Assembly (NCBI GenBank): GCA_020630675.1
Contig: JAHDIR010000031.1
Coordinates: 1-32,306 of the forward strand
Origin: Bdellovibrionales bacterium
GTDB lineage: Bacteria > Bdellovibrionota > Bdellovibrionia > Bdellovibrionales > UBA1609
Reading direction: 5' to 3'
Length of the DNA: 32,306 nt
Shown here: piece by piece, positions 508 to 32,188 of the stretch
How the letters are laid out: every line of letters begins with the position of its first letter
Position numbering within the stretch: the first letter of the stretch is position 1
Program-made: the position numbers and the translations under genes
The notes under the pieces: generated by a model
What the model was told of the DNA's origin: nothing
The model's database searches: none
Seen by the model: the letters and a program-made list of their open reading frames with translations, nothing else

Positions 508-1914
508 CTACCGATCTTTAAAACTGGTGTCTAAAAGACCCTCTCTCAGGAAGTCTAATAAATCACTTTTTTCTTGGTCGGTTAAGCCAAGCCCCTCTCT
601 CATTGACGGCACATCAATTTGTTGAATTCTTTCCTGGTTACGAGCTGGGTCGCGATCCACAGTTAATACTTCTTCGTAATGCTCTTGATACTGACTAGGT
701 ATAACATAGTTTTCAAGGCTTTCAGAGACATTATTTTTATGATCAATGACTGCTTCAAGATTATCAAAAGCTCCATTGTGCATATAAGGAGCAGAAAGTT
801 TTATATTTCTTAACCCTGGAGTTTTAAATTTGTAACGATCTTCTGCACGTTTACTAAATTCCTCACGGCCTAGATCATCTTGAAAAGGCTCAAACCCTAG
901 TTGTGGTACGGCCACACTAAAGAAACCATCATTGGTCATACGAGGGCCAGAATGACAAACATTACATTTACCCTTGGTATAAAATACCTTCATTCCTTGT
1001 TTTTGAGAGGTCGTTAAAGCATTTAGATCTCCATCGAGGTATTTATCAAAAGGAGTTGCGTTGGCTTTAAACTGTAACTTTAAAAAAGCTCTAACAGCTC
1101 TAGAGATATGCCCAGGGTTTATATCTTCGAGTTCAATATCTGGGTAGGCATTAGAAAAAAATAGGCGGTAGTGCTCATGAGCAAGAAGGTCACGTTTTAA
1201 AATTTCATCCCAAATGGCGGGTGTGTTAGGAAGGCTAGAAAGATCATTATTAAGTCCAAAGAACTCCTCAGGGGTTATCAGTGGAAAAAGTGGTTGAATA
1301 TCAAAAGCATTTTCAAAAGTATCTGCAATGTCTGCTCGGTCAGGGTTGGGGCCGGAAATCTCAAGAACAGGAGAGGAAGGAAAACCAAGAATAAATTGAA
1401 GTCGGCCGTCCCATAAAGCCAAGTTCATACCTTCTCGCCCTTTATTAAATATAACCGGAGAATGACGGCGCATAGGTTTACTTTTGCCATTCACCTGTCG
1501 ACGGTGAGGGAAGTCTCCGATTCCTCCCGAGCCAATTGGAAAGGGGAGACCGTCACCTGTACCTAATTCATTTTGATGGCAGGTGGTGCAGGAAACATCA
1601 TTAAGCCCACTCATTCCTGTGTCATTAAAAAGTGCTTCTCCTAGCAAGACTAATGCAGAAGATTCCGGCTTTGGGTCGCTCAATGAAGTGAGTTTATAAC
1701 GATTAATAAGATCCACAAGCTCTTGGTCGATTGCCGTTTGCGGATTATAAATAACTGGAGGCCCCAAAGATATGGGGTGATCAATATCTACTTTATCCAA
1801 ACCGATTTGGCTGGCTTGGTAATCACTACAATTTGTAAAAGAAAATTGAACCACAAAAAGGACTGATAAAAATAAAGTAGTAATGAGTAGTCTTGACCAA
1901 TATTTAATATTCAT
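508..1914 (-). CDS. Di-haem cytochrome c peroxidase/MauG-family lipoprotein (paralog 2)
   Basis: 468 residues from the ATG at 1914. Two CxxCH haem c sites are present, CTTCH at 109-113 and CNVCH at 317-321, with the late family motif PGLRNIKLSAPYMHNG near 366-381. Proteins of this fold are periplasmic bacterial cytochrome c peroxidases (H2O2 to water) or MauG-like oxidases; the sequence cannot tell these apart. The N-terminus is a hydrophobic export signal ending in FTNC (Cys29), an atypical lipobox with Asn at -1. I start at 1914 rather than 1941 because the longer form only adds a charged MSPSGRDKK stretch ahead of the signal peptide and overlaps the upstream gene by 23 bases; from 1914 the gap to the upstream stop is 4 bases. 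It is a clear paralog of the next gene, forming a two-gene operon. Confidence 0.9.
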   Translation of the reverse strand: MNIKYWSRLLITTLFLSVLFVVQFSFTNCSDYQASQIGLDKVDIDHPISLGPPVIYNPQTAIDQELVDLINRYKLTSLSDPKPESSALVLLGEALFNDTGMSGLNDVSCTTCHQNELGTGDGLPFPIGSGGIGDFPHRRQVNGKSKPMRRHSPVIFNKGREGMNLALWDGRLQFILGFPSSPVLEISGPNPDRADIADTFENAFDIQPLFPLITPEEFFGLNNDLSSLPNTPAIWDEILKRDLLAHEHYRLFFSNAYPDIELEDINPGHISRAVRAFLKLQFKANATPFDKYLDGDLNALTTSQKQGMKVFYTKGKCNVCHSGPRMTNDGFFSVAVPQLGFEPFQDDLGREEFSKRAEDRYKFKTPGLRNIKLSAPYMHNGAFDNLEAVIDHKNNVSESLENYVIPSQYQEHYEEVLTVDRDPARNQERIQQIDVPSMREGLGLTDQEKSDLLDFLREGLLDTSFKDR

Positions 1915-1918
1915 TTTT

Positions 1919-3250
1919 TTATCTCTGCCTGAAGGACTCATCGGTGAGCCCGTTACGTAAAAATTCCACTAAATCTTCTTTTTGTTGGGAGCTTAATCCC
2001 AGTCCATTTCTTAATCGAGGGTCAAATATAGCGTTTAGTCTTAAGCTGTTTCTGGCTGAACTTGTGTCATGAATAATTGTTGCATCATAATGTCGTTGAT
2101 AACTGGAAGGGATTTGATAGTTGCTTAGGCTTCTTGGGATGTCATTATAGTGTTCAACAAGAGCCTCTAAATTTTCCAGAGCACCGTTATGCATAAAGGG
2201 AGCAGATAGCCCGACATTACGCAAACCAGGGATTTTAAATTTGTATCTGTCGTTAGGGTTGTTGGTCACCTCTTCTCGGCCCAGGTCATCAAAAAATGGA
2301 GAAAAACCAATCTGAGGAACTCCTGAACTGGCAAATTGATTATTTGTCATGGCTGTTCCTGAGTGACAAGAGTTACAAGCTCCTTGAGTATAAAAAACCT
2401 TCATCCCTCTTTTTTGTGCATCAGTAAGGGCGGAGGTATCACCTGCGATATATCGATCAAAGGGAGAATTGTTAGCTAAAAATTTAGCTTTCATAAAGGC
2501 CCCCATGGCTCGTCCAATATGTCCCGGGTTAAGGTTTGCTGAAGAAGTCGTAGGAAAAGCACGACTAAAAAGTTGAACATAACTGGGCTGGTTTAAAAGA
2601 CGTCGAGTTAAAATTTCTTCCCAAATATCTTCTTCGCTGTTTAAGTTTGCCAGTGAATTATTTGTTCCTAAAAGCTCTCTGGGGCTTAATAAGGGGAAAA
2701 GAGGTTGAATATCAAAAACATTTGTAAATAAGCTAGTTATATCAGAGCGAGAAGGGTTGGAACCAGAGATGGAGGCCACAGGAGATGAGGGAATACCACT
2801 GATAAAACCTAGGCGACCATCCCAGACAGCATGGGGTTGCTCAGGGCGAACTAAATTAAATAAACTGGGTGAGTGACGACCTACGGGTAAGCTTCTTCCA
2901 TTGACTTGTCTTCGATTGGGGAATGTACCTATAGCTCCTGTTCCTAAAGCGAAAGCCAGGCCATCACCGCTGCCTGCAACATCACTGTGGCAAGTTGCGC
3001 ATGAAGTGTCTCTGGGGCCACTTAAGGCAACGTCGTTAAATAAAGCTTTACCCAAGGCAATCAGGTCCGGTGAGTCTTGTGGTGGTAATTGTAATGGCCT
3101 TAAATTGTTAACGGCCATAAGAGAGTTGAGCTCTCCATCAGTGGGCGTGATAACAACTGTTCGGCGACCACCCCCTCCACAGTTTGTGAAAGAAAACCCG
3201 ATCAGTCCAACCAAAGAAACAATAAAAGATACCAAAAGTACATTTTTCAT
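1919..3250 (-). CDS. Di-haem cytochrome c peroxidase/MauG-family lipoprotein (paralog 1)
   Basis: 443 residues. Haem c sites CATCH (84-88) and CNSCH (292-296) are 208 residues apart, the same spacing as in the downstream paralog. Shared blocks include RRQVNG, SP(V)IFN/SPSLFN, WDGRL, DIQPLFPL, INPGH/LNPGH, DDLGREE, PGLRN and AP(Y/F)MHNG. The signal peptide ends in FSFTNC (Cys24) followed by a Gly/Arg-rich linker, so the protein is probably a lipid-anchored periplasmic di-haem enzyme. The likely role is peroxide reduction or another MauG-type oxidation at the envelope, fed by electrons from small c-type cytochromes or quinol; no partner gene is visible. It is the first gene of the pair, with a candidate promoter at 3301-3331. 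The ATG at 3250 sits directly before the signal peptide. Confidence 0.92.
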   Translation of the reverse strand: MKNVLLVSFIVSLVGLIGFSFTNCGGGGRRTVVITPTDGELNSLMAVNNLRPLQLPPQDSPDLIALGKALFNDVALSGPRDTSCATCHSDVAGSGDGLAFALGTGAIGTFPNRRQVNGRSLPVGRHSPSLFNLVRPEQPHAVWDGRLGFISGIPSSPVASISGSNPSRSDITSLFTNVFDIQPLFPLLSPRELLGTNNSLANLNSEEDIWEEILTRRLLNQPSYVQLFSRAFPTTSSANLNPGHIGRAMGAFMKAKFLANNSPFDRYIAGDTSALTDAQKRGMKVFYTQGACNSCHSGTAMTNNQFASSGVPQIGFSPFFDDLGREEVTNNPNDRYKFKIPGLRNVGLSAPFMHNGALENLEALVEHYNDIPRSLSNYQIPSSYQRHYDATIIHDTSSARNSLRLNAIFDPRLRNGLGLSSQQKEDLVEFLRNGLTDESFRQR

Positions 3251-16014: not shown

Positions 16015-17295
16015 ATGGTTTTAGGCTGGGGCCAGTTTTTAAAAATTATATTTTCATTAGGTTTTTTCATTTTAAGCGCTTGTGCAGAGGAAGCTAAAAA
16101 AGGGGAAAGCTGGTCTTTAACAGAGCCTTCACTAATTATTAACGGCCAGGAGCTTAAGGTTTCAGACGTTCAAGCCTTACAATCTAGGTATTTATCTTGG
16201 CAAGATCACCTGTTGTTTCGAGAAAATCAACAAGGGCAAGTAAATTTACAATTCACATCGACCTGTGGAAGCTATGCTCAGACTTTATCAGCTCCATTGA
16301 CTCAAAAAATAAGTATCTTGGAACTTCTTCCTTATAAAGCGCTTCTTGATTTACAAAGCGATAATGGAATTACTGATATATCTTGTCAGTTTGATTTTTT
16401 GGCAACTCATATGAGCGGCAATAAACACAAGTTTACTTTAAAGAATATAACCGTGGTTGGAAACCCTTTTAACAACACAAGCGACTTATTAAAAAATGAC
16501 TTATCTAAAAACTCTTTGTATATGGATGAACTAGCTCTAAAGGTGACAGATTTTGATTTACATATTTATTGTGATCAATGGCAAAGTCCAATCACGAAGT
16601 CCTCAGAGTCTTCTTTGATGAATATAAAGAAACATTGGCACACTAAAAAGGACTTGAGTAAAGTGTCGTCATGTCTTGTTTTAGAAAAAAATAATATGGG
16701 CTTAGTGCGTTCAGTATCGGCTCAGTTTTATTTAAAAGAAAAACAAGATTTTCCTCATGTCGTTGTTGAGCGAGCACCATTAAATCAAAATATTCAAGAA
16801 GGAAATATCATTCACGGAAACACGTATCATATATTCAATTCTAAATCTAAAATTATACATATGGCGATTCCTAAAAAAATAACAGTTCATATTCACCAAT
16901 TACAAAAATATAAGTTTGACGAAGTAGGAGCTGCTTACCCGCAGCCAGCCAACCTTCAAATCGATACAAATGTGAAAGTGACAGAATGGGGCTCTTATTA
17001 TGTGTTTTCTCTACTTCCCAATCAAGAAGCTTACATTCGCCACTCCTTTCCCGTAAGATTTAAAGCCTGCAAAGTAAGAAATATAAATATAAAAAATGAC
17101 AGCCGTATTAAATCAAACCCTATTAGAGGAGCTAGGTATTTATATGAAACCGGTGTTTCCATGTACTTACTCAATTCGCCGGTTGTAAATGATGGGACAA
17201 TTATTCAAAGCCATAATGTACTCAACTTCACTTTTGGAGACTATAATGACCTAAATATGCTGATTGGGGTACCTTTTGAAAAAGTGACTTGCTAA
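16015..17295 (+). CDS. Unrecognised exported lipoprotein
   Basis: 426 residues. The signal peptide ends in lipobox LSAC (Cys23), so the mature protein is lipid-anchored. I do not recognise the family. The rest is beta-rich in character, with few Cys (clusters near residues 80 and 122, then 184, 218, 354 and the last residue) and no catalytic motif. A TAGGAG stands 7 bases before the ATG. The gene stands alone, preceded by the structured element at 15887-15941 and followed by 163 bases before the trypsin-like gene. The C-terminus ends on Cys, which may form a disulphide with an earlier Cys. An envelope structural or binding role is possible, but I see nothing that fixes it. Confidence 0.7.
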   Translation: MVLGWGQFLKIIFSLGFFILSACAEEAKKGESWSLTEPSLIINGQELKVSDVQALQSRYLSWQDHLLFRENQQGQVNLQFTSTCGSYAQTLSAPLTQKISILELLPYKALLDLQSDNGITDISCQFDFLATHMSGNKHKFTLKNITVVGNPFNNTSDLLKNDLSKNSLYMDELALKVTDFDLHIYCDQWQSPITKSSESSLMNIKKHWHTKKDLSKVSSCLVLEKNNMGLVRSVSAQFYLKEKQDFPHVVVERAPLNQNIQEGNIIHGNTYHIFNSKSKIIHMAIPKKITVHIHQLQKYKFDEVGAAYPQPANLQIDTNVKVTEWGSYYVFSLLPNQEAYIRHSFPVRFKACKVRNINIKNDSRIKSNPIRGARYLYETGVSMYLLNSPVVNDGTIIQSHNVLNFTFGDYNDLNMLIGVPFEKVTC

Positions 17296-17458: not shown

Positions 17459-18433
17459 ATGATGATGTTTTCTATAAAGTTCTTCCTTGGATTAATATTT
17501 ACTTTTACATTTAATTTATCAATGGCCAAGGTTGAATATCTTCCTAAGAGTCAGCTGAGTGAAAAAGTACAAAATTCATTTTTATGGAAAGACTGTGGCT
17601 CCACACGTATTCATGACAAAATACAAATTTACATATCAGCTCTCCATTGTGTGAGTAAGCACATTGGCAGTTATTTAAATAACGAAACATTTACCATAAA
17701 AGGAAACCCTATTATTGGTGACGAAACAGTTTTTTCTTATAGTTACCCTGAAAGTAAAAATATTGAGTTTAATGGTAAAAAAGTTTTAGCTTGGGGTGGA
17801 TGCTTTACGGGTTTTTCTTTAGATCTTATATCTAGAGCAACAAACAGCGAAATTTCAAGGGCTACAGATTGTTTGCAAAAAGATTGGGTTATATATGAAG
17901 TCGTGGATGTTGAAATAGCTTTTTTATCAGACCCTCCAAGCAGTTGTTTAAAAGCAAATTTAAAAACAACAGATCAGCAACAAGTTCGTCCGATTGGTCG
18001 AACTAGTAACACAATGTACGTATTTAGGGATGATCAGCCTGTGAATGTTATTCAGCATGGTGCTTACAGTGTTGGTTATATCGATTATAATGTTTGGGAT
18101 TCAAAATCTAAGGGTTACGAGTTTACTGATTTTTGGGTCGAAAAAATGATAAATGAAGTGAGCTCATTAATTGAAAATGGTTCAGTTATTATTTCCTCGG
18201 GAGAGGTTATTGATGGTTTTTCGGGAGGTGCTATTCTTAACGAAAATGATGAAATCGTGGGAATAAATACAGTGCTACTTATACCGGGAAGATCGAGTCC
18301 TGAAATGAATTATTTGTATGGAACTCACTTTGGAGTCACTATAGCTGGAGTGAAAAAACAAATGATTCAGCAAAATAATGAAAATATAATTAAAACTTCT
18401 TTTGAAGAAGTTTTTGATTGTAATGAACAGTAG
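17459..18433 (+). CDS. Secreted trypsin-like (S1 fold) serine protease with a non-standard acid residue
   Basis: 324 residues. A signal peptide runs to about residue 23 (cleavage likely after SMA). S1-type motifs are ISALHCV (His63, with Cys64 probably paired to Cys46) and DGFSGGAIL (Ser255 in the place of GDSGG), followed by EIVGINT as in the C-terminal barrel. The stretch aligned to the catalytic Asp motif (D-I-A-L-L) reads V-E-I-A-F-L, putting Glu152 where Asp is expected; Asp150 is two residues earlier. The enzyme may use Glu152, Asp150, or have lost normal activity. Other Cys (115, 138, 163, 322) suggest a disulphide-stabilised extracellular or periplasmic protein. TAGG lies about 6 bases before three consecutive ATG codons; I took the first. 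It is not visibly co-transcribed with its neighbours. Confidence 0.78.
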   Translation: MMMFSIKFFLGLIFTFTFNLSMAKVEYLPKSQLSEKVQNSFLWKDCGSTRIHDKIQIYISALHCVSKHIGSYLNNETFTIKGNPIIGDETVFSYSYPESKNIEFNGKKVLAWGGCFTGFSLDLISRATNSEISRATDCLQKDWVIYEVVDVEIAFLSDPPSSCLKANLKTTDQQQVRPIGRTSNTMYVFRDDQPVNVIQHGAYSVGYIDYNVWDSKSKGYEFTDFWVEKMINEVSSLIENGSVIISSGEVIDGFSGGAILNENDEIVGINTVLLIPGRSSPEMNYLYGTHFGVTIAGVKKQMIQQNNENIIKTSFEEVFDCNEQ

Positions 18434-20681: not shown

Positions 20682-23600
20682 TTAGTGGGAGTGAATAAGG
20701 TATTCAGTCCAGTCGGCAGGTTGAGTAAAAAAGCCTTGGGTTTTCATTTCACGAAATAAATCAGCCTCATTGCGACCATATTTGGTAGATAGTGGGTACA
20801 TAGTTAGAAGTTCTTTAAAAAGCTCAACCCTAATTTGATCAGAACCAGTCCAAGTAGAATCTAATAAGTCTTGAGACTGTTCTTCTAAGTCAATAAGACT
20901 ATCAAGTTTGTGATCGAGTCGTTTTTTTACATAATTAAATTGCTCTGTTAAAATTTCAGAATCAAAATTAAAAATTAAACCAGGTCTACTTTTACGAGCT
21001 AAGAATAAATCCATAGCTATCCCTCTTTCATGTAACCAAAAACATTTATTTCGTTGTCCGCAAACTGTGAACTCAAGTTTGTGGCCATTATTTGCAGCTG
21101 TGGCAATAAGAAGTTCAGTTTGCGTGTAAAAATGTTTTCCCAAATAATTAGACTTTAACATATCATAAGCAAGATCAAAGTAGCCATTGAGGGAATTGTA
21201 AGGCATATACTCTTGGGTACCTTGTTTACTTGATGGTAGGGGAGACTTAACGTTTAATTTGAGTTGAACATCAATATTGTACCTAGAAATTTCTCCACTA
21301 ATATATGTCAGCAAATAATAATTTTCTTTTTCAGAATTAATTTCAATATTAGTAAATAAATCATTCATGTGAGAGCCAATGTCTTTTAAAGTTGTCTTAT
21401 GTGTATAAAGGCAGCCCTCGACAATTTTTTCGAATGAGTTTCGACATTTTCTTAAAGAGACATCTCTATAAGTAATATCTCCTAACTGATACATTTGAAC
21501 TAAAAATTCTAATTTATATTTTCTTGTTGATTCACGAAACTGTTCCTTTTCTACAAGGTCCCAGGAGGTGTAGGGCTCTGGTTTTCTTATTAAAGTTCGT
21601 TTAGTTTTTCCCATAAGCTTAGAAATGACATCAGCAGAAAATTCAGTTAATGAGGTTCCACGCCGATAAGTTGTTTCTCTTATTTCGGATATGAACTTAT
21701 TTCTTCTCATAAAAGGGTTGTTTTCATTTGTGAATAAATCAGCATTAATGTTAATAGTTAGCTTATTACCAACAACAGGTAATGTTTTAATGTTTCCTAG
21801 GGTATCACTTTTAATATCAAGACCATGAATTAAGTACTGACGAACACGCAAAAGAAAGCTAATTTTAGATGTTATATAGTTAATTTTATCATTATTTACT
21901 TTAACAAAATAGTCTTTGAAGTTTGTTTGATAGTTATTGGCCAAAGCTAGTTCAGTGTTAGCTTGTTTAACTGTTAAAGTGCCATCTAATATTTTTTCTA
22001 TTAAGGGTTGAACAACAAGTTGAATATATTTTTTTTCACTAAAAGCCACAGCCCGCGATCGTCTACCTGACTGATTAGCTGTGACTAAGCTACACTTACC
22101 CAGTTTTTTTGTAATTAATATTTGTGATCCCAAATAAATTTGCTTAAAAAACTCAAAGTCGGTTAGAGTTTTTAAGCTTTGAGATAAATCAGATGTAATA
22201 GTATTTGGAGACTTCACTTTAATTCTTTGAGTCATATCGATGACCTGTTTATACCAATCAAGAATCGGGACATACTCTAAGCGGAATCGTTCATTTGCCT
22301 CAATGATTGAAGTTGGAGGTGGAGCGTCTTTAGAATTAGAGTACTGCCCAGCAGGAGTTGTTCGAATAATACTTTGGTTGTAAGTATCTGAATAGTAATT
22401 GTATCTTAAATTTTGATTGTTCTCTAATTGAATATAGGCGGGAAAAGGAGTAATTCTATTATGAAGTTCAAAGAACGGTATAATTTCATCTACAGGCTCT
22501 TCATTTTCAATACTTTGGCACCAATTCACCCAATTATTCACAATAGATAGATTACTAAAATAAAGATCTTTCTGTTTTTCAACAACATTTTCAAGAATTG
22601 GTTTTCGAAGGTTCATTACTTCAACACCGAGAGTATTTATAAGTTCATCAGCTGTGATTTGATATTCTTTATGGGTGTGAGTTGTAAAAAAATAATGAAT
22701 AACATCAACAATTTCAAACCGAAATAAAGAGGCTTGAGTTTTTTTCACTTCTTCTTTTTCTTCACCAGTAGCATACTTTTCTTTGTTATTTTGAGTGAAA
22801 TTTAAATTTAAATTCATAAAATCAAACCAGGGTTCTTGTATTTCTCCTGTAATAAATTTATCTATGAGTTTGGCAGGGTTATCATCAAAGTAAGTTGTTG
22901 AGATATCATAACTATATTTCCATTCTGTTTTTGCCATATAATATATAAAAGCCAGCATATTTGGGTAAACAACTGTTTTTAGTATGTTTCGATTGATAGA
23001 AAAGAAAAACTCCTCAGACTCTGTTAAGTTAATAACTCCTTTGTGTAGGTCAATAGCTTTAAAGAGCTTCCTAAATGAACCAATAGTTTGATCATGAAAT
23101 TTTGACCACTCTGGCACAATATTTTTAGAGCTGGCCAAAACATTTAAAACAAAAGCCTGGTCTTTTATTTTCTTTTTAAAAAAATGATTTCTAATTATTT
23201 GAGTAGATTCGATAGATAACTGAGCTAATCTCCAACGAACTAATTTTTTAGATAAACTATAGATTCTTTCAATATCAACAGATCCTTGAAGAATGTATTC
23301 ACGAGCTTGTTGTTCATTCATTATATTACGAAATACATTTAAAACTAAAAAATCGCTAATAACCCATTTTGATTGTGTTTGAGGTTTGAAAAATAAGTTT
23401 GAATAAGCCGGGTATTTAGATAAGTCATAAGAATCTTCTAAAATTTGTTTTTTTATTTCATTTACTGTCTCAATGACCCCGTTGCGTATAATTTCACTTT
23501 CAGAACTATAAATAGGTAAAAAGGAAACTAAAAACTCGCGAAAGAAATTTATAGCACTATGACTATCTTTTTTTACTAACCAGGGTTGAGCTCGTTCAAA

Positions 23601-24353
23601 TATATGAATTGCATTGTTATCAACAGTTTTCCAATCAATTCTTTTGACAATGTTAAGGGTGTTTCCTAAGTGTTTTTTTACAAAAGTGTTTTGTTCTTCA
23701 TTTAAGTTGCTTGAAGATTTAGACAGTTGGTCCAAAAAAGTATTAAGATATAAATATTCTAATTCTTTTTCTGTGTTCTGTTCTGAGATATCATAGCCGA
23801 TAAATAGTAGATTAAGTTTTTTTTGATGATCAGGTTCGTGTTTGATGATATGAATAATTATACGAACAAGAGATTTTTCTTTTTTTAATAAATACTTAAC
23901 TAAATCACAGCTTGGAAATTCACTATGGGTACAAGGGTCTAAATATATTTTTTTAAATTTATCGAGAGATTTTTTAAATTTAATATCAAATAAAGAATCG
24001 ATATTATTAGCTTTCCAAATTTGGAATATCTGTACATAAAGACTTAAATATTCCACCATTTTATTATTTTTATATGAATTACTGCCTGAGACACCTTGAT
24101 TAAATAAATGAACGCTTAGTTTTTCTAAATCTTTAATTAAGTTTGAAGTAGAGGCAATGTTTCCTTTTTTTTGTAATTCAAAGTGATCAGTTGAATTAAC
24201 TTTTGTACTATCACTTTCTGTAACATTTGAATTATTATAACTTTCTTGAATTGCCTGATCTGAACGATGAATAATTTCGTCACTACAACTAAGAGTCATC
24301 AAAAGACAACAAGAAAGTAACAAAAAAAATAAAAATTTGAGGTGTTTCAACAT
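20682..24353 (-). CDS. Giant lipoprotein, paralog of the adjacent upstream gene, function unknown
   Basis: 1223 residues. A hydrophobic signal ends in TLSC (Cys23), then a Ser/Asn-rich linker to about residue 70; the remainder is mostly helical, charged sequence with no recognised domain. It is a diverged paralog of the gene at 24386-28213: Cys141/Cys149 match Cys156/Cys164 there (8 residues apart in both) and are followed by similar I-I-x-x-I...H-x-x-x-L-x-L stretches; YPNM (463-466) and PWF (508-510) recur 45 residues apart in both. The C-terminal part has TVCGQRNKCFWLHERGIAMD (about 1095-1114) with two close Cys. The ATG has only a distant AAAGGA (16 bases upstream). It is the third and last gene of the operon, AT-rich relative to leuS or yejA. 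Confidence 0.75.
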   Translation of the reverse strand: MLKHLKFLFFLLLSCCLLMTLSCSDEIIHRSDQAIQESYNNSNVTESDSTKVNSTDHFELQKKGNIASTSNLIKDLEKLSVHLFNQGVSGSNSYKNNKMVEYLSLYVQIFQIWKANNIDSLFDIKFKKSLDKFKKIYLDPCTHSEFPSCDLVKYLLKKEKSLVRIIIHIIKHEPDHQKKLNLLFIGYDISEQNTEKELEYLYLNTFLDQLSKSSSNLNEEQNTFVKKHLGNTLNIVKRIDWKTVDNNAIHIFERAQPWLVKKDSHSAINFFREFLVSFLPIYSSESEIIRNGVIETVNEIKKQILEDSYDLSKYPAYSNLFFKPQTQSKWVISDFLVLNVFRNIMNEQQAREYILQGSVDIERIYSLSKKLVRWRLAQLSIESTQIIRNHFFKKKIKDQAFVLNVLASSKNIVPEWSKFHDQTIGSFRKLFKAIDLHKGVINLTESEEFFFSINRNILKTVVYPNMLAFIYYMAKTEWKYSYDISTTYFDDNPAKLIDKFITGEIQEPWFDFMNLNLNFTQNNKEKYATGEEKEEVKKTQASLFRFEIVDVIHYFFTTHTHKEYQITADELINTLGVEVMNLRKPILENVVEKQKDLYFSNLSIVNNWVNWCQSIENEEPVDEIIPFFELHNRITPFPAYIQLENNQNLRYNYYSDTYNQSIIRTTPAGQYSNSKDAPPPTSIIEANERFRLEYVPILDWYKQVIDMTQRIKVKSPNTITSDLSQSLKTLTDFEFFKQIYLGSQILITKKLGKCSLVTANQSGRRSRAVAFSEKKYIQLVVQPLIEKILDGTLTVKQANTELALANNYQTNFKDYFVKVNNDKINYITSKISFLLRVRQYLIHGLDIKSDTLGNIKTLPVVGNKLTININADLFTNENNPFMRRNKFISEIRETTYRRGTSLTEFSADVISKLMGKTKRTLIRKPEPYTSWDLVEKEQFRESTRKYKLEFLVQMYQLGDITYRDVSLRKCRNSFEKIVEGCLYTHKTTLKDIGSHMNDLFTNIEINSEKENYYLLTYISGEISRYNIDVQLKLNVKSPLPSSKQGTQEYMPYNSLNGYFDLAYDMLKSNYLGKHFYTQTELLIATAANNGHKLEFTVCGQRNKCFWLHERGIAMDLFLARKSRPGLIFNFDSEILTEQFNYVKKRLDHKLDSLIDLEEQSQDLLDSTWTGSDQIRVELFKELLTMYPLSTKYGRNEADLFREMKTQGFFTQPADWTEYLIHSH

Positions 24354-24385
24354 ATGACGTGTATTAATATCCTTTAAAAATAAAT

Positions 24386-27300
24386 TTACTCTCGCCTTTC
24401 TTCAGTACTATATTTACTCATAGAGTCTTCGCGTTCGAGCTCTTCAGTATTAGCTATAATTTTTTCACCAAAAAGTTCTTCAAGGTCAGAAGACTCTTCT
24501 ATAAAAGTTTGGGAAAAGTACAATGAAGTGTCTGTGTTCAATTTTTGGCTCACTTGTACAAACTTACCAAGAATGAGGTTGCTTATTAAAGGTTCGAGCG
24601 GTCCGATTCCTGAACTTAAATTTACGATTTCTTCATCTAATCGATAGCGAAATTTAAATTCACTATCTTTATGAAGGTGTATTCTTTTTTTAATTTCTTT
24701 AATAAACTTTCTGTTGGTATCAAAATGATGTGCGATCCAATTTGAATATTTTTTACGGAATATTTCGTCAATATACTTAGGAGGTTCAAATAAAAATTGA
24801 GCATTTTCCTTTTTTTGCATAGAACTAACAAAAGAAACTAATATTTTTTTAAACCAAGTTTTGACAGCTTTATCAATATCATTTTCAGAAAATACTTTTA
24901 AATAAACCATATCAAACTGTGAATAAATTTTATCAACACCATTTTTTTTAATGAGAGATTCATAAGTTTTACTATTGTAAGTACTTGATTTTCCCAATAA
25001 ATTTAGGATAATTTCATCTCTTTCATTTAAGTTAATAAAATCAATAAAGCTTTTATAGTAATCAAGAACATCTGCTGCTGAAAAACTTTTACAATGTTTA
25101 TTGCGAACGTCTTGATTTAATAAAATACTTTTACAGTTTATGTCAGGATGACTTGAAAACTCTCCCATTTTAAAAAGATTTATTAAAACCTTGCCTTTGC
25201 TTTCATAACTTGCAAGATCTAGTGGTTTTTTTGCCCAATCTAAATACTCGGTAAAAATAATTAATCCTGCACTAACAAACTTTTCACGAGCTATATTTTT
25301 GTCTTCAGACCAATCAAATTCAATACTTTTAGTTTTTGTATCGCCATAAATGTTATTAGAGGAAGTAAATTGATCTGGGAAATTAATTTGATATTGTCCT
25401 TCAAGGTGAGGAGAATTTTCTAAGTAACTAGCTAATCTAGCATATACATCCATTTTGTAGGTTGTAAGGCTTTGAGTTGTAATAGAAGTTTTTCCAAATT
25501 TATCTTGATATTCTTTTTGTGGAAATATTGGTCTTTGGGTAAAAGTAAAATGCTCCTTTTTAATAGCTTGTAAATCTTTTGTTAAACTAATAGAGGGGTT
25601 TTTAATTTCTTCTATGGTTTTGTCAGAAAGTGTCGCATAAAGACTTTCAAAAAGATTTTCAAGATATTTGACTTCTTTGAACAAAATAGATTGTTTTATA
25701 TCTTTGTGTCTTTTAGCTATTAGCCAGTGACAGTAGCCATACTGCTCACTTTTAAGTTGTGATTGAGTTTCATAAATACTACTGAGATAATTTGCTTTTA
25801 ATCGATTAAACTTCTTGAATTGTTCTTTTATGAGCGCATCAATTTTGTCGGTTTCAGCGTTATTATGTTTTGCGTATATTTCGATCAAAACCTTAGCGTA
25901 AGCCGTTTCTTCTTCAAAATCAGTTCTTATTTTTGTAATGACGGAAAGCATATTCTCAGAAAAAACATCTTGAATATAAAGACCGGTACCATTGAGTTGA
26001 AAATGGGTAGGTTTATAAATAGATTTTCCCAAATCACTGAAAGCTATTTGATTTGTTATATTTTTTCTTGGTTGCAAGATATTTTCATAATCATTAACCC
26101 AATCGATTTCATTTTCAGAGTTTTTGATGAACATTTCTTCTTGTTTTTGAAGTTGACCTTCTTCTTGGCAAACCTCAGTGAGGAGCTTAAGTCGACTCAC
26201 TTGGGTTCTTTTTTTCTCGGTAAGGTCATCATAAGCTGTAGAAAGTTCCAGCTCAGTTTTAGAGATAATCATTTCTAAAACAACCTCAAAAAATTGAGTC
26301 GTTGAAAAGTTAACAACAGTGTTTTCAGAAAAGGTATCAAATATTTTTGTAACTAAAGCGTAATAAAAAGTGTATAAAATTTCATTTCTATCTAGCTTGT
26401 CTCCGTTGTGGTGAAAATTAAACCAAGGGTTAAAGCGTTCTTCAAAAAAGTATGAAATAACCGTATCACTAGATATTGTTTGGGGAGTTCCAAAAACCCC
26501 TTTTACTTCAGCAGTTAAGCTTCCTGAAGCCATGACCTGAATAAGAGGAAACATATTTGGGTATGTTACTGTGAATTTAATATTTTTTTGAAAGTCAGCA
26601 ATCACTTCCATGAGATGGTTTAGCATCTCTATAGCCTCAAGGTTATTTGTGTCTTTGATTGAGCTTGCAAAGTCTTCTAATAAATTTATATCATTTTCTA
26701 ATTTGGCCCAAATATTTTTTATTTTACTTGCCTCATCAGATGATTTTTTTAAAATCTGAATGAGATCTATATTTTTGTTTTGAATGTAAAAGTCATTCAT
26801 GAGGGTATTGGTGTACACAATGTTTGTAGCAAACTGAACCTTAATAAATCCTAAAAATGTCTTTAATAGTTTTATTTGGTCTTTTTTGGTTCCTTCCCAA
26901 AATGACTTAGCATCTTGCTTTTGGTAGTGCCCAAAAAATAACATATGTGTAAGATAGTAATATTCGTCCCAATTCATTGTATTCAAAGTTTTTTGCAGAA
27001 GCTCATCAGCAATATTCTTACTTTTACCATCAGGTGAATTCTTACTTCGGTTTTCAAATAAAATAGTATTTGGATATTTTTTAATTTTTTCTAGAACAAA
27101 ATTATTTAAAGGACTTAAGCTTGCCATTTCCGTATTTTTTAATTTTTTCCAACGGCCTAATAAATTTTCTTTTTGAAAAAGCAACCCTTGCTCATTTCCA
27201 TTAGATAACTGATATTTTAGTTTTTCTATTTGGCATTGTAGGTCTGGTGATAAATTTGAATTGTTTAGGTTAATAGGGATATCGCATGTATAAGAATTTT

Positions 27301-28213
27301 CAACTAGGCTATTTTCTTTGTAAATATGCTTTCCAAGAAGTCTTACTAAATCAGACATACCTAAGGTCGTGACATTAATTTCTTTTCTTGTTAATAGCTT
27401 CCAAGCATCTAAATCTTTTAATAACTCGGTATGATTATCTTGGTTTTGAATATCAGTAATACTTACTTTAAGTACGTTTGAAAATAAACTAGCCATTTTC
27501 TTAAAGTCATAAGAGCTTTCATTTTCAGCATTAATGTTGATTTCTACTAAAAGTTGTAAAAGCATAGCATTAATTTCGCTATCTTTAGTTTGATTTTTAA
27601 TTTCATAGGCAGCTTCAATAAGCTTTAATTGCTCTTTATGGTTGGTTTCTTGTTGGAAAATTAATTTAATAATTTTAGTGATATTATTTGCATCTATTGA
27701 TTTATATTTTTTAATCAGTAAGCAAGTGCTTTCTATCTGTAGGTTACAATCATAAAATATAAGAGATTTATATGCGTTTAGTATATCAAAATTTTTAATT
27801 TTAGTTGCATCTGATTGATGAATGAGTAATAGAGCTTCATTAAATACAACGATAAGTCGAGGGATTATGTATTGGTCATATTTATTTTTTAAGTTAAATT
27901 TTACTCGGTCAAGCAAGTAATCTTTATTAAGAACAATATTTTTTAAGGGTTCAATTACATTTTTTAAAAGTAAATCAGAATCAACTTCTAAAGAAATTTT
28001 TTGTTGGCTAGCCAAAGCTTCTTCAGCTGAAATGAGTTTTTGATTTAACCTTTCAGCTTTTGTTTGCCCTAGAGTTTTAATATTTTGTTCTTGAGCCTCT
28101 TCATAATCACCATCTTCAAAAGCTTGGTTACGATTGACCACATTTGTAGTACAGCTCAGCAAAGACATTGCTGTACAAATTACGATTATTAAATGTGATA
28201 AAATTTTAAACAT
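24386..28213 (-). CDS. Giant lipoprotein, paralog of the downstream gene, function unknown
   Basis: 1275 residues. The signal peptide ends in LLSC (Cys21), followed by an acidic linker (AFEDGDYEEAQEQN). I recognise no domain. Helical, Lys/Asn/Glu-rich repeats of similar hydrophobic spacing suggest a long alpha-solenoid-like rod. Landmarks shared with the downstream paralog are Cys156/Cys164, YPNM (551-554) and PWF (596-598). Other Cys lie near GYCHWLI (central) and NCKSILL...KHCKSF in the C-terminal third, and a Cys pair occurs in the matching place of the paralog. The start is well supported: AGGA 6 bases before the ATG, made from the upstream stop (TAGGA), so translation is coupled to the metalloprotease gene, which ends 7 bases before. 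A 32-base gap leads to the next gene. Confidence 0.78.
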   Translation of the reverse strand: MFKILSHLIIVICTAMSLLSCTTNVVNRNQAFEDGDYEEAQEQNIKTLGQTKAERLNQKLISAEEALASQQKISLEVDSDLLLKNVIEPLKNIVLNKDYLLDRVKFNLKNKYDQYIIPRLIVVFNEALLLIHQSDATKIKNFDILNAYKSLIFYDCNLQIESTCLLIKKYKSIDANNITKIIKLIFQQETNHKEQLKLIEAAYEIKNQTKDSEINAMLLQLLVEININAENESSYDFKKMASLFSNVLKVSITDIQNQDNHTELLKDLDAWKLLTRKEINVTTLGMSDLVRLLGKHIYKENSLVENSYTCDIPINLNNSNLSPDLQCQIEKLKYQLSNGNEQGLLFQKENLLGRWKKLKNTEMASLSPLNNFVLEKIKKYPNTILFENRSKNSPDGKSKNIADELLQKTLNTMNWDEYYYLTHMLFFGHYQKQDAKSFWEGTKKDQIKLLKTFLGFIKVQFATNIVYTNTLMNDFYIQNKNIDLIQILKKSSDEASKIKNIWAKLENDINLLEDFASSIKDTNNLEAIEMLNHLMEVIADFQKNIKFTVTYPNMFPLIQVMASGSLTAEVKGVFGTPQTISSDTVISYFFEERFNPWFNFHHNGDKLDRNEILYTFYYALVTKIFDTFSENTVVNFSTTQFFEVVLEMIISKTELELSTAYDDLTEKKRTQVSRLKLLTEVCQEEGQLQKQEEMFIKNSENEIDWVNDYENILQPRKNITNQIAFSDLGKSIYKPTHFQLNGTGLYIQDVFSENMLSVITKIRTDFEEETAYAKVLIEIYAKHNNAETDKIDALIKEQFKKFNRLKANYLSSIYETQSQLKSEQYGYCHWLIAKRHKDIKQSILFKEVKYLENLFESLYATLSDKTIEEIKNPSISLTKDLQAIKKEHFTFTQRPIFPQKEYQDKFGKTSITTQSLTTYKMDVYARLASYLENSPHLEGQYQINFPDQFTSSNNIYGDTKTKSIEFDWSEDKNIAREKFVSAGLIIFTEYLDWAKKPLDLASYESKGKVLINLFKMGEFSSHPDINCKSILLNQDVRNKHCKSFSAADVLDYYKSFIDFINLNERDEIILNLLGKSSTYNSKTYESLIKKNGVDKIYSQFDMVYLKVFSENDIDKAVKTWFKKILVSFVSSMQKKENAQFLFEPPKYIDEIFRKKYSNWIAHHFDTNRKFIKEIKKRIHLHKDSEFKFRYRLDEEIVNLSSGIGPLEPLISNLILGKFVQVSQKLNTDTSLYFSQTFIEESSDLEELFGEKIIANTEELEREDSMSKYSTEERRE

Positions 28214-28220
28214 CTTTTTC

Positions 28221-31200
28221 CTATTTTATGTATTCAAATACCTGTGGCAATATCCAGCCTTTTAATGACAAAGCTGTGGCACCAATTAACCCAAGCCCTC
28301 TTAACGACTCAGAGCACCCTAACTGGTTGGGTACTTGCCCGACTCTTTTGTGATAAATTTCAAAGCTAGTATTTACACTTGTTTCGAATTTATTTCTGGC
28401 AAGTATATCACCGGCAATATTGGGGCCGACATTAAAGCCTTCGAAATCACTATTGCTTTTAAAAAAACTAGCTAAACCAATACTCCCATTCTGAGGGCTA
28501 ATGCATTTGTCGAGCTCTCCATTGGCTAGGTTGGCGATAGAATCTTTGACGGTCAGCCCTTGTAGTGGTTTACCAAAAGATGTGGTTTCATACGAAATTT
28601 CCAATGCCCATACGAGGGCATTTTCTTGATCTAAAAAGCGTACTTTAGAGATAGGTAAAATAATTTTGCCCTCAGGGCCTCTGGCAATTAATTTACGATC
28701 GGGCAAAATGTAGACCTGTGGTAAACCATAAGACTTATTAGTTCTGGGTTTAAAAACTCGACCTTTAAAACCATAAACAATGCTTGGGCCTTTATCGCCG
28801 GTGATTGTTTCAAGCATTACAGCCACCGGTCTTGAAGTTATTGTAAATTTAGTTTGGTTTTGTAGTTCTTTGATAAAGCCTTCATTAAAGCCGTGGGTTA
28901 ATGCTTTTCCTTGAATAAAAGTACGATTTAAAAAATAGGGCATATATAAGTTGGCTATACTTAGCGTCGCTGTATCTTGAAAGGGAGTGTTTCCAAAGTT
29001 CATATTTTTTATAACAGATGTATTAATGATTTCTGAAAACTCAATTGGATATAGAGGGTAGTATGCAAATTTTCCTTTTTTTGAATTAGAAAACTTTGGT
29101 TTAAGTATTTGCCAGTAGCCTGCTTTCATTGTTGATGAAAAACTAGTCAAAGATTCAAGTATAGCTAACTTTATGGGAAGAAAACCAAGCTTTTCAAAAC
29201 GCCCCCAAACAGTAGAGTAATTGGCCTGCGCATTTCCTCCACGAATTCCAGTAGGTATAATAGAGTTTTCATAATTAATTTCACTATGGTCTGATCCATC
29301 AAGACTTAAAGTAGACTTAACTCCTTCCAAATGTATTTGCGTTGCTCTACATAGCTTTTGAACTTCAGTAAGGGCTATACCTTTTTTATAAAGACTATTT
29401 TCTAAATTATGATAGCCGTAGTTATCTAAACGACTAAAGTTCACATCCTTGGTTGTTTCTATAAAAGTTTTGAGAAGTTGCTCGTAGTTAGTTTGACTTT
29501 GGATGACTGGTAAATCGATAGCTTGGGCGAGTTTTGGGGTTGTTTTTAAAGCCAGTTGAGCAAATGTCAATTGCCATTCCTTTGCGGCAGAACCTGGGTT
29601 AATGCAAGATTTTGAAAAACTAAGTAAGGCTTCTTCACTGGCTTTGATTTTATCAAAAGCTAACTTATAAACTTTATTGTTGGTAAGTGTATATCTTAGG
29701 TGGTCATAAAAAGTTCGATTATTATTCATTAAGTTATAAGTAATTTTCCATAGCCTTTTAGATGCAAAGTAAGGGTTTCCACCTGATGCTGTGGTAAATG
29801 AGTTCATTCGAGATGTGAAAGAGTTTTTATATTGATTATTATTTTCTTCAACAATTGAAGGGGCATCAAACCCTCGGTCAAATCTTTTGCAGTAGGGGCT
29901 TGTAGCTAACCAGGCTTCAATGTCTGAGCACTGAGGCATATAGCGGGTTCTATATATTAACCCGTTTTCTGGGTGAACCGTTTCGGCAGGGACTAATCCA
30001 TTACTGGTTAGAGGAAAAAAAGTAAACTGTTCATCACCAGCTCTAAACGTCGAGTATTCTTGTTTGTATAAATATTTAAGAACAAGTTTATCCTGAACCT
30101 GTAGTTTAATTTCTGTTTTGTAGTCTAAGTTAACTTGGGTAAAACCGCTCATATAGTCCATGACGCTGGAGTAGTTTTTATTGTTAAGGGAGGCCGCGTG
30201 CATGGGCTGAAAAACTTCTTCATCAGGCACTGTTCCTCTTTCAGGCAACCTATTGGCTTCAAACTGGTGACCAAGGCCAACAACATGACCCCATTCATGA
30301 AGCATGAGCATTTTAAGAATTGATCTCGCAGCAGCACTTTTGCCATCATTATTGAGGAAAGAAGTTGCTGATTGCCAAGAGTGATAATGGTTTTTTAATA
30401 GATTATCAGTATCGTAAATAGAACTTTGAAGGTTAGTCATTTCTCTAGTTAATAACTTCATGGCGTCATCAGATTCTGGTTGTTTCATTGCATTTCTAAA
30501 TTCTAATTCTTCCGAATTATAAGTTACGACCTCAGAAATATTTGAATGCATTTTTATTTGCTCAATATATTCTTGCTCAGAAATAACGTTATAGTGGTTG
30601 TAATCTTGTAACATATCCTCTGGAAAGTCAGAGAGATCATAATTTTTTAAAAGTCTTATTTTTGAATATTGAGACATATCAATATTAGAATGTGATGGAG
30701 TGTATTGAAAACCTGGGCTCCATTTTTGTAACCCGAGTAAGCTATTGATGTCGATAAAATCAGGGTGGTGTTTTAATGATGGTAAAGATTGTAAAGAGCT
30801 GTTGAGATTTGCTGATATTTGGTCGCCCACCGACGAATTGTACTGATTAACAATGCGATCAATTAGCCCACCCCAAATAACAGCTCCCCCCCAAAGAATT
30901 TCACCTGTCTTTATATTTGTATTGGTTAAGCCGATTCCCAGTGGAGCATTAAGAGAAAGCTCATAATCTTCCACCCAAGTGATGCTAGGGCAACGTAAAT
31001 CAAAGGGGTATTTATATTTCTTTTTTGAAACAACAAATGCTTTTTGTCCTGCTTGAGTCGCCTTGATTGAACTAAACATTGAGTTCATCTCTTCAAGAAC
31101 ATCAATAGCAATATTCTTATACTTTTTAGAATCATCAGGAAACCCATTTAAACAAACCTCAATAGGTTTAGATAAGTCCCAATGAGCAGCATATTCATCG

Positions 31201-32072
31201 ACACCATAGCCATCAGTTTTACTTCCAAGAATATGCAGGATATTCATATGACGAGCTGTGCTTGGATGGTAAGGGGTCTTAGTAAAGCCAGATGTAGGCT
31301 TCATTTCTAAAAAATTAAACCGTACCTCATTTTGAATATCAGACCCATAAAGGCTTGATGTGTATAGGGCGCTAAACCCTAAAAAATTCTTGGGGCCGGT
31401 TTCCATCTCTACATCATATGCAGAAAGGTAGTTAGTGTTTGAGACTAGGCCCATAAGACCATTTATAATTTTACTAAATAATCCTGGAGAGCGATCTCTC
31501 TTCAGAAAGTTAATTTTTTGCAAATCAATATCTATAATAGGAGAAAGCATCCAGTTTTTTTTATCAGTGATTTTTTCATATTTATTTTGTTTCCTTCCTC
31601 TTGAATCAATAACCTTTTCATAAAAATAATGTCTTATAATTGGTAAAGTAAAAATTAACTGGTAGTCTTCTTCGTAGTTATCTGAGTTTACATCAATTTC
31701 TCGAGCCTCAAGGTTTAAACCATCTTTGCTTATATGAAACTCCATATTACAGTGTGTAGATCGAGTAGAGGCAGCCATTTGTACACCTGCATTTTTATAA
31801 ATGCCTGATTGATGAACTGGAGCCCATCCGCATAGCCAAGTTTTACGCGTATTTTTCCAGGTATTTTTATTTTGGTTAATGATTATTCCAAAAAAAGATT
31901 TTCTTATAGAAAGGACACCATTTTGAACGGTTCCGGGAAGGCCTTGAGTAAGAAGACCGGGGGTTGGGTTGACAGCTTCTGGTGTCGAGTAGGTGCAAGA
32001 GGTTAAAAAGTGAAATAGGCATAGAAAAGCAAAAGCGTTTAAAAATACAGAATTTAGCTTTTTAAATATCAT
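28221..32072 (-). CDS. Large metzincin-type zinc metalloprotease lipoprotein
   Basis: 1283 residues from the ATG at 32072. The signal peptide ends in LTSC (Cys26). The catalytic zinc motif HEWGHVVGLGH occupies 592-602 (His592, Glu593, His596, His602), and SVMDYM supplies the Met-turn (Met638). About 200 residues before the zinc site a TGEI-x-WGG-x-V block (389 onward) and a later C-x-x-RFDRGFDAPS stretch recall the DUF5117/DUF4953 zinc-protease layout; that family call is inference. The C-terminal ~600 residues are unrecognised. I reject the longer start at 32171 because the best promoter (32161-32188) would begin transcription inside it; the ATG at 32102 is the alternative. AAGGA lies 13 bases before the chosen ATG. 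First gene of the operon, coupled to the next. Confidence 0.85.
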   Translation of the reverse strand: MIFKKLNSVFLNAFAFLCLFHFLTSCTYSTPEAVNPTPGLLTQGLPGTVQNGVLSIRKSFFGIIINQNKNTWKNTRKTWLCGWAPVHQSGIYKNAGVQMAASTRSTHCNMEFHISKDGLNLEAREIDVNSDNYEEDYQLIFTLPIIRHYFYEKVIDSRGRKQNKYEKITDKKNWMLSPIIDIDLQKINFLKRDRSPGLFSKIINGLMGLVSNTNYLSAYDVEMETGPKNFLGFSALYTSSLYGSDIQNEVRFNFLEMKPTSGFTKTPYHPSTARHMNILHILGSKTDGYGVDEYAAHWDLSKPIEVCLNGFPDDSKKYKNIAIDVLEEMNSMFSSIKATQAGQKAFVVSKKKYKYPFDLRCPSITWVEDYELSLNAPLGIGLTNTNIKTGEILWGGAVIWGGLIDRIVNQYNSSVGDQISANLNSSLQSLPSLKHHPDFIDINSLLGLQKWSPGFQYTPSHSNIDMSQYSKIRLLKNYDLSDFPEDMLQDYNHYNVISEQEYIEQIKMHSNISEVVTYNSEELEFRNAMKQPESDDAMKLLTREMTNLQSSIYDTDNLLKNHYHSWQSATSFLNNDGKSAAARSILKMLMLHEWGHVVGLGHQFEANRLPERGTVPDEEVFQPMHAASLNNKNYSSVMDYMSGFTQVNLDYKTEIKLQVQDKLVLKYLYKQEYSTFRAGDEQFTFFPLTSNGLVPAETVHPENGLIYRTRYMPQCSDIEAWLATSPYCKRFDRGFDAPSIVEENNNQYKNSFTSRMNSFTTASGGNPYFASKRLWKITYNLMNNNRTFYDHLRYTLTNNKVYKLAFDKIKASEEALLSFSKSCINPGSAAKEWQLTFAQLALKTTPKLAQAIDLPVIQSQTNYEQLLKTFIETTKDVNFSRLDNYGYHNLENSLYKKGIALTEVQKLCRATQIHLEGVKSTLSLDGSDHSEINYENSIIPTGIRGGNAQANYSTVWGRFEKLGFLPIKLAILESLTSFSSTMKAGYWQILKPKFSNSKKGKFAYYPLYPIEFSEIINTSVIKNMNFGNTPFQDTATLSIANLYMPYFLNRTFIQGKALTHGFNEGFIKELQNQTKFTITSRPVAVMLETITGDKGPSIVYGFKGRVFKPRTNKSYGLPQVYILPDRKLIARGPEGKIILPISKVRFLDQENALVWALEISYETTSFGKPLQGLTVKDSIANLANGELDKCISPQNGSIGLASFFKSNSDFEGFNVGPNIAGDILARNKFETSVNTSFEIYHKRVGQVPNQLGCSESLRGLGLIGATALSLKGWILPQVFEYIK

Positions 32073-32160
32073 AAATTTATGCCCGTCCTTAGCCTTATCC
32101 ATTACACATCTCGTGCCCAAAAGTAAGTTATTGAAAATACTCGCTTCTTGGCTGTGTTTT

Positions 32161-32188
32161 ATTATATTCATGTCGATCTTTTAGACAA
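32161..32188 (-). promoter_or_regulatory. Promoter of the giant lipoprotein operon
   Basis: On the minus strand TTGTCT (32183-32188), 16-base spacer, perfect TATAAT (32161-32166). The transcript would start near 32154, leaving an untranslated leader of about 80 bases before the ATG at 32072. Confidence 0.6.

Follow-up and report, generated by a model that had tools for sequence, protein, structure and literature searches.

The window analysed here is the whole 32,306-nucleotide stretch of a Bdellovibrionales genome, and at one end of it lie three consecutive genes for very large lipoproteins, which we call A, B and C (Table 1). A first-pass annotation of this DNA had described such a row of lipoprotein genes, separated by 7 and 32 bases, and our analysis of the open reading frames confirmed their minus-strand orientation, their lengths and their lipoboxes. 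The stop codon of A is also shared with the next Shine-Dalgarno sequence as annotated, within a junction that reads TAGGAAAAAGATG. From its most upstream ATG the open reading frame of A would run over 28221-32171 and encode 1316 residues; the start was instead taken at the ATG at 32072, 33 codons later, because a normal lipobox then falls at residues 23-26 of a 1283-residue product. The single promoter that had been placed upstream of A is represented by a candidate site that matches the consensus at 10 of 12 bases, but sites of this kind are as frequent in the region as chance would predict (47 observed against 53.7 +/- 9.1 expected from shuffled sequence), which leaves the claim of one promoter unproven. 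Only 234 bases of contig lie upstream of A, with short open frames crossing the contig end on both strands; as no frame in these 234 bases looks like the last part of a barrel gene, a copy of the barrel-like gene O (see below) hidden immediately upstream of A was rejected. Elsewhere in the window, a plus-strand reading frame at 17459-18433 encodes a protein that looks secreted, bears a trypsin-like SGGAI motif and has no Pfam match at E <= 0.001, and upstream of it stands a lipoprotein-like reading frame of 426 residues (16015-17295), also with no Pfam match. Two adjoining genes for MauG-type di-haem cytochrome c peroxidases occupy 508-3250 on the minus strand.

Table 1. Features of the A-B-C operon in the window. 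O denotes the barrel-like fourth component described in the text.
Feature	Position	Strand	Residues	Remarks
Candidate sigma-70-like promoter, TTGTCT-16-TATAAT	32161..32188	-		Upstream of A; frequency of such sites not above chance
Gene A, lipoprotein metzincin (by motif)	28221..32072	-	1283 aa	Lipobox LTSC, Cys26
Parts of A (model)			338-482 (insert)	Beta-rich N-terminus; disordered insert before the zincin core; C-terminus helical/mixed
Zinc site of A, HEWGHVVGLGH	30267..30299	-	592-602	Invariant columns in 19 homologues
Met-turn of A, SVMDY	30153-30167	-	636-640	After the zinc site
A/B junction	28214..28220	-		7 bases; TAG stop overlaps the B Shine-Dalgarno AGGA
Gene B, giant lipoprotein, predicted all-helical	24386..28213	-	1275 aa	Lipobox LLSC, Cys21
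B/C junction	24354..24385	-		32 bases; site of O in most other operons, O absent here
Gene C, paralogue of B	20682..24353	-	1223 aa	Lipobox TLSC, Cys23

Gene A carries the complete zinc-protease site attributed to it on first reading. Residues H592, E593, H596, G599 and H602 of the zinc site, together with M638 and Y640 of the Met-turn, are invariant across 19 homologues, and on these grounds A is a metzincin by motif. Profile searches with A returned weak metzincin matches only (EcxA, E=0.021; archaemetzincin, E=0.058). In the AlphaFold2 model of residues 74-1273 (pLDDT 76, pTM 0.75) the disordered insert precedes the zinc helix, and comparison of this model with PDB folds gave no match at E <= 0.001. 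The window's genome holds a second copy of A, and the two copies are sisters in a quick tree (SH-aLRT 99). When the profiles of A and B are compared, only the signal peptide aligns.

B and C belong to a separate, paralogous family. Their pairwise similarity is barely visible (E=0.003), but the profile comparison is decisive, aligning the two over their full length in 1063 columns (hhalign probability 100, E=1e-93) and bearing out the paralogy that had been proposed for the two partners. Four cysteines are common to both proteins, with B Cys156, Cys164, Cys682 and Cys828 corresponding to C Cys141, Cys149, Cys612 and Cys754. The AlphaFold2 model of B (residues 60-1255, mean pLDDT 81.6) is nearly all helix, and Foldseek found no PDB structure similar to it at E <= 0.001, with TM-scores no higher than 0.16 for the 50 matches listed. 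Searches of B and C against Pfam, NCBIfam, PADLOC and PDB sequences and folds produced sub-threshold single matches and no family, in agreement with the first reading, and no curated family covers either protein in any homologue. Weak Pfam matches to Matrixin in B and to DUF1978 and Phage_TTP_2 in C are reproduced in no homologue and are ascribed to chance; the idea that B and C are degenerate metzincins was rejected as well. A defence-system reading found no PADLOC match and a plasmid reading no plasmid match, and both were set aside. The invariant residues of B and C are for the most part of structural rather than catalytic type (Cys, Trp, Pro, Phe), from which we infer a binding or scaffold role. 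Full-text literature searches, which covered few subscription papers and excluded preprints, turned up no account of the operon or of B and C.

The operon is conserved well beyond the window. Across the order, a whole-genome search with A identified convincing homologues in about 20 genomes, and in the DNA around them A is followed by B and C nearly wherever the contig is long enough. The three genes thus adjoin in related genomes, as the first-pass annotation had proposed to check, and the order A-B-C is kept in 21 of 21 fully readable operons (six families of Bdellovibrionota, two outside the window's order). Convincing B matches occur in 22 of the 369 genomes of the phylum, none of them among the three other genomes of the window's genus, while multiple copies occur elsewhere: four operons in one genome (G076), three in another (L071, L077, L120), and in the window's own genome a second operon, A-B-O-C, which is split over two contigs. 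The assembly break in this second operon falls between the end of L034 and the start of L035, which share an exact 55-base overlap. Scanning GTDB contigs for a pattern taken from the single protein A gave no match, and an alignment-based scan returned Bdellovibrionota only, all named records being Bdellovibrionota/Oligoflexia metagenome assemblies; since the latter scan rests on two short A motifs, it does not prove absence outside the phylum. Evolutionary distances are correlated among A, B, C and O (Mantel r 0.57-0.71, equalled in 0 of 5000 permutations), in part through shared species history. By distances and nearest neighbours, several pairs of operons are matched alike by A, by B and by C, one of these pairs joining G076d to an operon from another family. 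Lipoboxes are found in most A, B and C proteins, with mostly S or T at position +2, for which sorting rules are not established in Bdellovibrionota. The dN/dS ratios for sister species, about 0.01 (A), 0.04 (B) and 0.07 (C), indicate that all three proteins are functional and that C is the least constrained. Together, synteny, correlated distances, matched lipoboxes and purifying selection strongly support the annotated core of one co-inherited envelope system with a protease and two partners; the functions suggested for such an apparatus, namely presentation, processing or contact, may apply to it. Neither of the two refuting conditions covered here, scattered genes in related genomes or partners that match unrelated known families, was observed.

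As a three-part system, however, that description was incomplete. A fourth component, O, of about 290 residues and with a signal-peptide-like N-terminus, is present in 14 of the 21 full operons, lying between B and C in 13 and directly before A in one. Within the order it occurs in 17 of 18 genomes with B against 1 of 123 without, counting strong matches only in the latter (Fisher p=9e-20), and in that one B-negative genome (G092) O adjoins a fragment of A. All seven full operons that lack O are found in genomes with O elsewhere. The window operon has none and the sister operon in the same genome carries one; four O-less operons belong to G076, which has one orphan O; the genome of the O-less operon L077 has two O-bearing operons; and the genome of L079 has an O that matches the one in the O-bearing operon of L117. 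The orphan O of G076 (L153 8171-9385, contig 11) has 404 residues and neighbours that look unrelated. A terminal aromatic residue is present in 12 of 16 O proteins against 9 of 61 control reading frames, strand-like amphipathic periodicity is above that of the controls (p=9e-5), and a Pfam search with 12 O sequences gave one weak OMP_b-brl match, features by which O appears to be a barrel-like protein. O belongs to the operon's system and is missing from the window copy.

A pairing of protease and barrel also exists without B and C. With a relative of A from G015 as query, A-like metzincins were matched in 113 of the 141 genomes of the order, and this order-wide family can be aligned with A across 670 columns (hhalign 99.9%, E=3e-34). 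A barrel-like gene (208-315 aa, some of these genes being cut by the end of the stretch) precedes the A-like gene in 28 of 31 assessable loci, and neither B nor C adjoins the order-wide relatives whose surroundings were examined. In L160-L189, and at 4631-8888 of L158, a barrel-like gene accompanies a metzincin lipoprotein of ~1000-1200 aa, other relatives reaching 1800 aa. The O set and the order-wide barrel set align by profile (99.2%, E=1.6e-19), which we take as support rather than proof because barrels can attract each other. No description of these pairs was found in searchable papers. Given that O tracks B, that the order-wide metzincins follow a barrel gene and that the two barrel sets align, the operon with B and C resembles an elaborated form of the barrel-metzincin pair.

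These observations suggest a model, to which we give an even chance, in which the operon encodes the subunits of one outer-membrane-anchored protease complex. A would be the catalytic subunit, a lipid-anchored metzincin, while the mostly helical B and C would scaffold A and present it to targets, or would themselves recognise targets. O would supply the membrane anchor or an exit path, and the window operon would draw its O from the sister operon. The model thus has us infer physical assembly, an outer-membrane or surface position, a division of roles among the subunits, one O common to several operons and a substrate for A.

The relative rates at which the genes evolve bear on a different division of labour, in which B and C are the surface-active part, as adhesins or recognition proteins, and A is a dedicated protease that cuts or releases them. 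C evolves fastest, B next and A slowest, with A almost unchanged between sister species at 99% aa identity, as this alternative would lead one to expect. In operon b of the sister species, DNA identity is about 94% in the flanks and A and is back to 95% in the gene after C. From mid-B to the end of C (L041 9300-14340 against L060), a stretch that takes in the 3'-terminal half of B and the whole of C, it is 52-88%. This drop looks like allelic replacement by a diverged allele with mostly 52-85% DNA identity, of a kind seen in surface proteins under outside selection. The replacement is a single case, however: operon c has no identity drop and operon a yielded one match, of 90% identity. Only one of the three sister-operon comparisons that include C shows such a change, so hypervariability of C through recombination is not claimed to be general. 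A homologues moreover exist without B and C, which implies that the family of A has an older job, and overall we regard B and C as the business end as rather unlikely.

Lower still in our estimation, and quite improbable, is that the barrel-metzincin pair serves outer-membrane housekeeping, as an envelope quality-control or biogenesis module to which B and C were added as substrate adaptors. The breadth of A-like metzincins across the order, and the regularity with which a barrel-like gene precedes them, are what such a module would show, whereas the B/C operon itself is patchy, being missing from the other three genomes of the window's genus, and is multi-copy, a pattern more in keeping with an accessory function than with housekeeping. 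That three unrelated lipoproteins are merely adjacent is hardly credible: the link between them is so far one of genes rather than of functional data, but simple adjacency is contradicted by the synteny of every full operon, by the presence of whole sets in several copies per genome and by the paralogy of B and C. The protease-complex model may also be carried further, to an entirely new kind of Bdellovibrionota envelope machine in which an order-wide barrel-metzincin core is extended in certain lineages by B and C, proteins with exchangeable parts that determine the target, and several machines in a cell share one barrel. We hold this extension tentatively and think it doubtful; under it, targets would be set in this way for example in prey, kin or phage contact.

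Comparison with known systems places the operon near several of them and within none. The catalytic region of A resembles the DUF4953 'Met-zincin' family (PF16313), which matches this region in 16 of 19 A homologues (best E=1.4e-11); the window A, however, scores 19.6 bits, under the Pfam cut-off of 24.2, and the sister copy in the same genome 24.7, so that, judged by profile scores, A is a remote relative of DUF4953 and is not filed as a member. Slam/type XI secretion, which joins a DUF560 barrel to a surface lipoprotein (PMC5449769, PMC9100927), is similar in that a barrel is encoded with lipoproteins and offers a possible surface route, but none of the 12 O sequences searched matches DUF560 and O has only about 290 residues, so a mechanism common to both is only a possibility. 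The closest parallel in layout is dentilisin of Treponema denticola, whose three-lipoprotein operon PrcB-PrcA-PrtP yields an outer-membrane surface protease complex of a subtilisin-family serine protease, PrtP, with PrcB (23 kDa) and PrcA (70 kDa) (PMC8167434). Both operons join a lipoprotein protease to two partner lipoproteins of restricted lineage distribution. In contrast to dentilisin, A is a metzincin, B and C are paralogues of about 140 kDa, and O-bearing A-B-C operons include a barrel gene where none is described for the dentilisin operon; the likeness is an analogy of layout, not homology. New beside these systems are a family of ~1200-residue proteins without known relative, paired as B and C next to a lipid-anchored protease in all full operons of a phylum that includes the Bdellovibrio predators, and an order-wide barrel-metzincin pair that offers a concrete target for genetics. 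Surface exposure, as in dentilisin, would make the system a direct candidate for action on neighbouring cells or matrix.
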